Shown piece by piece: positions 53,165 through 53,929 of a DNA stretch of 64,000 bases (the first letter of the stretch is position 1; every line of letters starts with the position of its first letter). The translations under genes and the position numbers were made by a program. This DNA is from Marvania coccoides. Taxonomy: Eukaryota; Chlorophyta; Trebouxiophyceae; Chlorellales; Chlorellaceae. The DNA is taken from contig OY978107.1 of NCBI GenBank assembly GCA_963854735.1, positions 255,501 to 319,500 on the forward strand, given 5' to 3'. Under the pieces are notes generated by a model. That model was not told the DNA's origin. It did no database searches and worked only from the letters and a program-made list of their open reading frames with translations.

Positions 53165-53581
53165 GGTGGCGGCAGCTAAATAAAAATTTAAATCAATGTA
53201 TTCGGAATGGAGGAGTCCAAAAATTAAGTTTGAAAATTTCAAAATTATTTTTGGCAATTGCAGTGATAAATAATGCCAGCCCGCATAAAACAGCTGGCTG
53301 CAATCACTTACTCTGGTTGCGTAACGAACACCTTAGCAACCATATTGCTTCGGTTGAAAAATATGAAATCCTGCAGACATTGAAAATATTTTCTCTCGCC
53401 TTTTTTTCTTCTTCTGGTTCTGAATATGGGTGAAACCCCACATGCACCTGCCATAGAAGCGGCAGGAATTGTCTCTGCTTCTCCATGCATGGCCATGACG
53501 TCGAAGAGGTTCAATGATGCTTCATCTTTGATTGTACGAGACCCACGGCGTGCTATAATCTACTGCGTCGCCGCTTCTGGT
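53165..53581. other. 5' flank of the large gene
   Basis: Probable 5' UTR and UTR intron of the minus-strand gene, then about 250 bp without features. CTATAATC at about 53553 is a TATA-like sequence roughly 30 bp before the permuted tRNA transcript. Confidence 0.45.
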
Positions 53582-53597
53582 GCAGAGCACGGGATAG

Positions 53598-53678
53598 AGC
53601 GGGAGGCCGCAGGTTCGATCCCTGCCTTCGGTACACGAAGCTGGAGTAGCTCAGTGGATCGAGAGCGCCCGCTTCCGA
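53598..53678 (+). tRNA. Circularly permuted tRNA-Arg (anticodon CCG)
   Basis: The 3' half lies upstream of the 5' half. 3' half, 53598-53633: anticodon-stem strand GCGGG, variable loop AGGCC, T stem GCAGG, loop TTCGATC, CCTGC, acceptor strand CTTCGGT, discriminator A. A 6-nt spacer CACGAA follows. 5' half, 53640-53678: acceptor GCTGGAG, TA, D arm GCTC/GAGC with loop AGTGGATCGA, G26, anticodon-stem CCCGC, loop TTCCGA. Rejoined, the anticodon stem has five Watson-Crick pairs, the T and D stems are perfect, and the acceptor stem pairs 7 of 7 with three G-U. Tertiary pairs fit: T8-A14, G15-C48, G18G19 with T55C56. A20 is the arginine identity base. TTTT at 53685 could end Pol III transcription. 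Processing would need circularisation and splicing in the anticodon loop. Confidence 0.85.
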
Positions 53679-53929
53679 TACCCATTTTGCTTGTTTTGGC
53701 TGTAAAGCTTCAGTCCGCTCCAATTTGATCTTCCAAAAAAAAAAAAAAAAACGTTTTGAACATTTCGTTTTGACATTTCTGACCACTCCAGCCTCAGCCA
53801 GACTTCTACACACTCTCTATAATATATAATAAGGCATTTGAACAGTGTGCAGGCGCCAGACGCGCCTACTAGCTGAAAAAACTTGCATTTTATTGGTATT
53901 TTGGGGGGTAGAAAATTCTTGGCGTCGCC

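Follow-up and report, generated by a model that had tools for sequence, protein, structure and literature searches.

The question raised by this locus is whether it encodes a nuclear tRNA back to front, with the 3' half lying upstream of the 5' half in one short piece of DNA. In the window, by which we mean the whole 64,000 nucleotide stretch of Marvania coccoides DNA that was analysed, the forward strand between positions 53598 and 53678 carries tRNA positions 38–73, then the six nucleotides CACGAA, and then positions 1–37 of the same tRNA. Re-reading the bases bears out the first-pass annotation on this point, which had the T arm and the 3' acceptor strand coming before the D arm and the 5' acceptor strand with a 6-nt spacer between them, and which had noted that the B box lies upstream of the A box. 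The parts of the locus are as follows.

53554..53559, + strand: TATAAT, a TATA-like hexamer 39–44 nt 5' of the 3' half and a weak candidate for an upstream promoter
53590..53594, + strand: leader segment CGGGA, complementary to positions 32–36 (TTCCG, 53673–53677); a 4-nt bulge at 53595–53598 would contain the 3' splice site, in a candidate hBH-like motif
53598..53633, + strand: 3' half, comprising A38; GCGGG at positions 39–43; variable loop AGGCC; T arm GCAGG-TTCGATC-CCTGC; acceptor 3' strand CTTCGGT; discriminator A
53612..53622, + strand: B box GGTTCGATCCC, upstream of the A box
53634..53639, + strand: intervening sequence (spacer) CACGAA, 6 nt
53640..53678, + strand: 5' half, comprising acceptor GCTGGAG; TA; D arm GCTC-AGTGGATCGA-GAGC; G26; anticodon 5' strand CCCGC; loop TTCCGA
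53647..53657, + strand: A box TAGCTCAGTGG
53675..53677, + strand: anticodon CCG, followed by A37 at 53678
53685..53688, + strand: T4 run, a probable Pol III terminator, beginning 6 nt past position 37

A tRNA-Arg(CCG) gene with its halves in reverse order

When the two halves are rejoined every helix closes, as had been claimed from the sequence. The acceptor stem pairs at 7/7 positions (three of them G-U), the T stem at 5/5, the D stem at 4/4 and the anticodon stem at 5/5 with Watson-Crick pairs. The expected bases listed at that stage, A20 among them, were also found on re-reading, with an A after G18G19 and U33 present. Position 38 and GCGGG, together with CCCGC and TTCCGA, complete a 7-nt anticodon loop, which places the junction at 37/38, the exact position of cleavage being predicted from this geometry. 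The observation is real, and 53598–53678 is confirmed as a circularly permuted tRNA-Arg(CCG) gene of type II, with its junction at 37/38. It is very probably a functional nuclear gene of this type.

On the window sequence as it stands, ARAGORN calls no tRNA and nothing in Rfam reaches its gathering score. Given the rejoined halves, with the join made exactly at 37/38, ARAGORN calls tRNA-Arg(ccg). If the trailer and leader are treated as an intron the same program returns Trp(cca) for the window gene, because a different splice register is picked.

Two covariance models were built. The first (R1) combined the window gene with four of the genome's linear nuclear tRNAs, artificially re-ordered, while the second (R2) was made from nine natural permuted tRNAs at other loci of the genome, with the window gene left out. 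Of the alignments prepared, MAFFT A1–A5 were discarded for gaps inside stems, A7 was discarded because A6 has more sequences and A8 was discarded because two of its matches were doubtful; the alignments kept were A6 and A9. A covariance model that allows permutation had been suggested as a check on the assignment, and R2 gives the window gene 67.3 bits (E 3.7e-19), although its independence is not total because its nine training sequences were aligned by R1, which held the window gene. There is no second R2 match in the window up to E 10. Across a control set of 91 other loci, from which the nine training loci were excluded, the top scores were 54.2 bits for a permuted-like locus (L096) and 47.8 bits for a locus that we count as permuted (L080), both of them nuclear. 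The best organelle match, at 40.1 bits, is a plastid locus (L013) where the model spans two adjacent ordinary tRNAs.

To gauge how readily chance would produce such an arrangement, a strict descriptor was composed after the gene had been seen, requiring a B box, a T stem, the acceptor, an A box, the anticodon stem and T33. It matches once in the window and nowhere on either strand of 616 Mb of sequence from a first-order Markov model, in which dropping the anticodon stem yields eight matches. Free-energy folding was uninformative (z −0.41 to −1.68), with minimum-energy structures that differ from the cloverleaf. The central claim of the first-pass annotation was a circularly permuted tRNA-Arg(CCG) in a lineage that has permuted tRNAs. 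Support for it comes from R2, from the Markov control, from the lack of any linear copy in two DNA searches and from 13 more well-formed permuted genes in the same genome.

Permuted and linear tRNA genes in the nuclear genome

The genome of Marvania coccoides CCAP 251/1B has been described as 22.3 Mb in 13 chromosomal pseudomolecules, with organelle genomes of 49.04 and 99.87 kb (PMC11833223). The assembly examined here contains 22,462,713 bases in 15 contigs, and CCCTAAA telomere repeats are found at the seven contig starts that were sampled. By eye, contig C14 (49,038 bp) encodes mitochondrial proteins and contig C15 (99,873 bp) plastid proteins. The plastid CysT protein shares 97% identity with its counterpart in Marvania geminata. 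Two observations on the organelles stand apart from the tRNA genes. A 256-aa ORF on the + strand of the plastid contig (L012, C15:30001–40000) has a deoxynucleoside kinase domain (PF01712, E 1.1e-39), a gene that to our knowledge is not expected in a green algal plastid, and a − strand ORF on the mitochondrial contig (L014, C14) repeats the unit MYLTSYKVR many times over, from a short tandem DNA repeat.

We find at least 14 well-formed permuted nuclear tRNA genes in this genome, against at least 12 linear ones. The census was made by searching for box motifs and scoring selected loci, with 63 of 454 tRNA candidates scored, and its counts are therefore minima. The pattern GGTTCGANYCC has 69 matches, 44 of them nuclear, and the reversed pattern matches more often (137), so the number of box matches is in itself no evidence. 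All 44 nuclear matches were inspected and comprise 11 permuted genes, 8 linear tRNAs, one permuted-like locus (L073), one lone 3' half of Lys(CTT) (L071) and 23 matches that have no tRNA by the tests used. For GGTTCAANYCC 21 of the 42 nuclear matches were inspected, including the linear Val gene, along with just a few of the matches to AGTTCRANYCT and to the A box. Three additional permuted genes, Ile(AAT), Val(AAC) and Tyr(GTA), were obtained through these other boxes. The lone Lys(CTT) 3' half (contig C8:773621) is accompanied by part of an intron and lies ~5 kb from a linear Lys gene, on the opposite strand. The genes counted are these.

Permuted: Arg(CCG), the window gene, on contig C11
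Permuted: Leu(CAG), L042; Thr(CGT), L043; Glu(CTC), L044
Permuted: Arg(TCG), L047; Ser(GCT), L052; Asn(GTT), L056
Permuted: Phe(GAA), L061; Ala(CGC), L064; Thr(TGT), L076
Permuted: Arg(TCT), L080; Ile(AAT), L105; Val(AAC), L106; Tyr(GTA), L109
Linear: Val(TAC), Gln(CTG), Met(CAT), Gly(TCC), Cys(GCA), Lys(CTT)
Linear: Glu(TTC), Asp(GTC), Thr(AGT), Arg(ACG)
Linear: Ser(TGA), L053, and Ser(CGA), L074, both with introns and named by eye

The 14 permuted genes are spread over seven of the 13 nuclear contigs. Their spacers range from 6 to 56 nt, every junction was placed at 37/38 and no additional intron was seen in any of them, while introns are present in several of the linear genes. The acceptor stem pairs at 7/7 in all 14 and the anticodon stem at 5/5 in 13, the exception being Asn(GTT) with 4/5; Tyr(GTA) has one T-stem mismatch.

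Names were not always agreed between ARAGORN and the by-eye assignments. For the two linear serine genes the program gives Thr (L053) and Gly (L074), and these names were set aside. Run on 15 tandem-doubled loci (L109 excluded), it reproduced the assigned identity for eight (Glu, Arg-TCG, Ser, Asn, Phe, Ala, Thr-TGT and Val) and offered another name for five, namely Trp for the window gene, Phe-AAA for L042 and L043, Pyl for L080 and Pro for L105; the permuted-like L096 was called Asp and nothing was called in L073. As the names differ, anticodons were assigned by stem pairing and U33.

Whether the two halves at each locus belong together can be read from their pairing. Counting acceptor and anticodon stems together, 13 of the 14 genes, Arg(CCG) included, form 12/12 pairs and Asn(GTT) forms 11/12, against a mean of 5.38 and a maximum of 10 in 182 swapped half-pairs, none of which reaches 11; the anticodon-stem part of this control is partly selected because the stems were placed to maximise pairing, and the acceptor was fixed by its distance from the boxes, but the descriptor that listed 13 of the 14 genes required at least 6/7 acceptor pairs.

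The possibility of a linear tRNA-Arg(CCG) elsewhere had been raised from the start. None was found in two DNA searches of the genome, one with the locus and one with the rejoined tRNA, both of which return the window locus alone, at a sensitivity that could miss a strongly diverged linear copy. A DNA search with the other 13 rejoined tRNAs gave 28 matches, with 15 candidates scored, and found no full-length linear copy of any of them, Phe(GAA), Tyr(GTA) and Asn(GTT) included, again at a sensitivity that could miss more diverged ones; no match runs from the 5' half of a tRNA through its 3' half. Apart from the permuted genes, the search picked up another 5' half each for Leu(CAG) and Ala(CGC), a second Leu 3' piece of 21 bases, and related Ser 3' halves on contig C9 (90%, in the linear Ser gene L074) and contig C3 (93%). 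Phe, Tyr and Asn normally have one cytosolic anticodon each, so that their permuted genes are probably indispensable. CGG can be read by Arg(CCG) and perhaps by Arg(TCG), both of which are permuted in this genome, and three long putative open frames of the window contain 13, 6 and 20 CGG codons.

Transcript ends, partial copies and other readings of the locus

In 14/14 permuted genes a run of at least four Ts begins 2–8 nt past position 37, against a background of 0.056 of positions, so the transcript probably ends just after the 5' half. For comparison, the T-run of the 12 linear genes lies 0–7 nt from the end in eight and at 8 in one, with the rest at 17, 26 and 42. Upstream of the genes no consistent motif was seen by eye in the ten other permuted genes that have 80 nt of upstream sequence (three had less).

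Some of the permuted genes have partial copies close by. Ala(CGC) (L064, contig C6:847109–847262) is followed 61 bp downstream by a second 5' half with its own T-run, and Leu(CAG) (L042, contig C2:846605–846800) by a partial second copy 107 bp on, where the second 5' half again has its own T-run. A solitary Thr 5' half, for which no 3' half is visible, lies ~0.95 kb from Thr(CGT) on the opposite strand. In O. lucimarinus, too, a further 5' half has been described downstream of the permuted Cys(GCA) gene (PMC3978253). The partial copies agree with a tandem-duplication model without proving it.

Three further places in the genome were left out of the 14. Two are permuted-like, L096 (contig C2:2868876–2869036, R2 54.2 bits) and L073 (contig C9:367000–368600, R2 31.9 bits); in both the anticodon arm does not resolve and there is no T4 run within the 25-nt trailer, and they are possibly pseudogenes or other junction types. 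The third (L084 and L110, contig C4:12745–13236) has a 5' half of Trp(CCA) with a T7 run after it. Just upstream of this half is a matching acceptor 3' strand, with 7 pairs including G-U by eye, and positions 38–56 are not recognisable; the locus may be a relic or else a disrupted tRNA of a more complex kind.

The Arg(CCG) locus could itself be read as a relic, that is, as a tandem tRNA duplication whose outer halves have decayed and whose adjacent 3' and 5' halves are no longer transcribed or spliced. The partial copies of Ala(CGC), Leu(CAG) and Thr lend this some weight, as do L073 and L096, where the anticodon arm does not resolve and the 25-nt trailer lacks a T4 run. Against this, all four stems of Arg(CCG) are fully paired, its halves fit their own partner far better than the halves of other genes, a T-run comes directly after the 5' half and neither DNA search turned up a linear copy able to replace it, and we consider a relic distinctly improbable. 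A split tRNA, with halves that are transcribed apart and joined in trans, is harder still to credit. The halves are indeed separate DNA units and split tRNAs exist in archaea (PMC3978253), but the 6 nt between them are too short for a terminator or a promoter, the T-run is found just after the 5' half in 14 genes, and one RNA whose anticodon stem closes is the simpler assumption. An equally far-fetched reading is a misassembly, or a rearrangement confined to this culture. The evidence does come from one assembly of one strain, but 14 loci on seven of the 13 nuclear contigs have their geometry and junction in common, which misjoins would not give, and Auxenochlorella has permuted tRNA genes too (PMC12636532).

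Junction pairing, predicted processing and relation to known permuted genes

The first-pass annotation had proposed that leader and trailer can pair and so could present the splice sites. The complementarity it pointed to (GGG with CCC, and GCAGAG with TTTTGC) exists, but its role at the splice sites is not supported, true leader-trailer pairs being no better than swapped ones over the 14 genes (p 0.48, 0.80 and 0.74, and 0.63 in the trailer-side setting of the junction-helix test), and we dropped it as a general junction motif. Since TTTT at 53685–53688 is a probable terminator, the GCAGAG/TTTTGC pairing would moreover use bases at or beyond the end of the transcript.

The leader tends instead to pair with the anticodon loop, an arrangement like that of intron-containing pre-tRNAs. 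In Arg(CCG) this helix has 5 bp with a 4-nt bulge, and over the 14 genes it averages 4.0 bp against 2.65 bp for swapped leaders (permutation p 0.00095, with bulges of 2–4 nt). Other bulge settings give p values of 0.00045 (3–4 nt), 0.049 (exactly 3 nt) and 0.0265 (a wider setting), and looser versions of the test give 0.04, 0.13, 0.08 and 0.30. In the favoured register the helix reaches at least 4 bp in 8/14 genes and falls under 4 bp in 6/14. Pairing of this kind would fit the hBH motif of permuted tRNAs in green algae (PMC3978253) and would give a better account of the junction than leader-trailer pairing. Two loci in the genome have the catalytic domain of a splicing endonuclease (PF01974), both above the cut-off.

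The anatomy of the locus is directly visible in the DNA, while transcription, cutting, circle formation and charging are proposed from what is known of Cyanidioschyzon and prasinophytes. Pol III would produce a single short transcript comprising the leader, the 3' half, the 6-nt spacer, the 5' half and a short trailer ending in U. In this precursor the anticodon stem would close a junction of three hairpins (T arm, acceptor and D arm), and the leader, paired to the anticodon loop, would take the role of the 3' part of a tRNA intron. The tRNA-splicing endonuclease would then cleave between position 37 and the trailer and between the leader and position 38, and a ligase would link A37 to A38 to give a circle. 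RNase P and tRNase Z would excise the spacer CACGAA, after which CCA would be added. There is precedent for the circular intermediate, for removal of the spacer and for CCA addition (PMC3978253).

Permuted tRNA genes are a known kind of gene, and what is unusual here is their frequency in one genome. The arrangement in Marvania coccoides resembles that of Cyanidioschyzon merolae in its reversed halves, intervening sequence and T-stretch after the 5' half, and the circular intermediate that is proposed for Marvania coccoides has been shown in C. merolae. That alga differs in having 11 permuted genes out of 43, with junctions at 20/21, 37/38, 50/51 and 59/60 and with an intron as well in 4/11, whereas all 14 junctions in Marvania coccoides were placed at 37/38 and no intron was seen in addition. 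Auxenochlorella is, like Marvania coccoides, a trebouxiophyte. For its strain UTEX 250-A the set from a conventional tRNA search was incomplete, and permuted genes came to light afterwards (PMC12636532; preprint PMC12633428).

The count given in PMC3978253 for 2014 is 34 permuted tRNA genes in seven species with at most 11 per genome, and prasinophytes are already among the reported cases; two more genes come from a second nucleomorph (PMC4494063). Prasinophytes (Ostreococcus and Micromonas) and the Bigelowiella nucleomorph share with Marvania coccoides the upstream 3' half, the 37/38 junction and a short spacer (5–64 bp in theirs), and their hBH-type junction may have a counterpart here, though they are described as having 2–6 permuted genes each, many of them Ser, compared with at least 14 here (PMC3978253). 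The permuted set of Marvania coccoides covers Arg, Leu, Thr, Glu, Ser, Asn, Phe, Ala, Ile, Val and Tyr. One O. tauri permuted gene is of type V (PMC3978253), unlike the Marvania coccoides genes placed at 37/38. Reversed halves also occur in Thermofilum pendens, where expression was argued from the lack of any other gene supplying the anticodon; there, in contrast to Marvania coccoides, the junction is at 59/60, CCA is encoded and extra introns are present (PMC3978253). Arg(CCG) is absent from the permuted genes tabulated in Table 1 of PMC3978253. A literature search, supplementary files aside, gave no paper on permuted tRNAs of Marvania among the matches listed, and the main text of the Marvania coccoides genome paper does not contain the word tRNA (PMC11833223).

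Permuted tRNA genes are rare, and here a single green alga has at least 14, some of them the sole detected genes for indispensable anticodons. In algal genomes of this kind, a large share of the tRNA set can escape standard annotation. Recognition by Pol III when the A and B boxes are reversed, the formation of circles by all of these genes and their origin by tandem duplication could each be tested in this one organism. On a wider reading, which to us is evenly poised between right and wrong, inside-out genes would be the normal and perhaps the majority form of nuclear tRNA gene in this alga (11/19 in one orientation-blind sample), including the sole detected Phe, Tyr and Asn genes and the tRNAs that read CGG (CCG, and perhaps TCG through wobble), so that cytosolic translation would depend on RNA circles. 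The adjacent partial duplicates would then suggest that rearrangement is recent or ongoing, and the usual order of A box and B box would hardly be needed for transcription.
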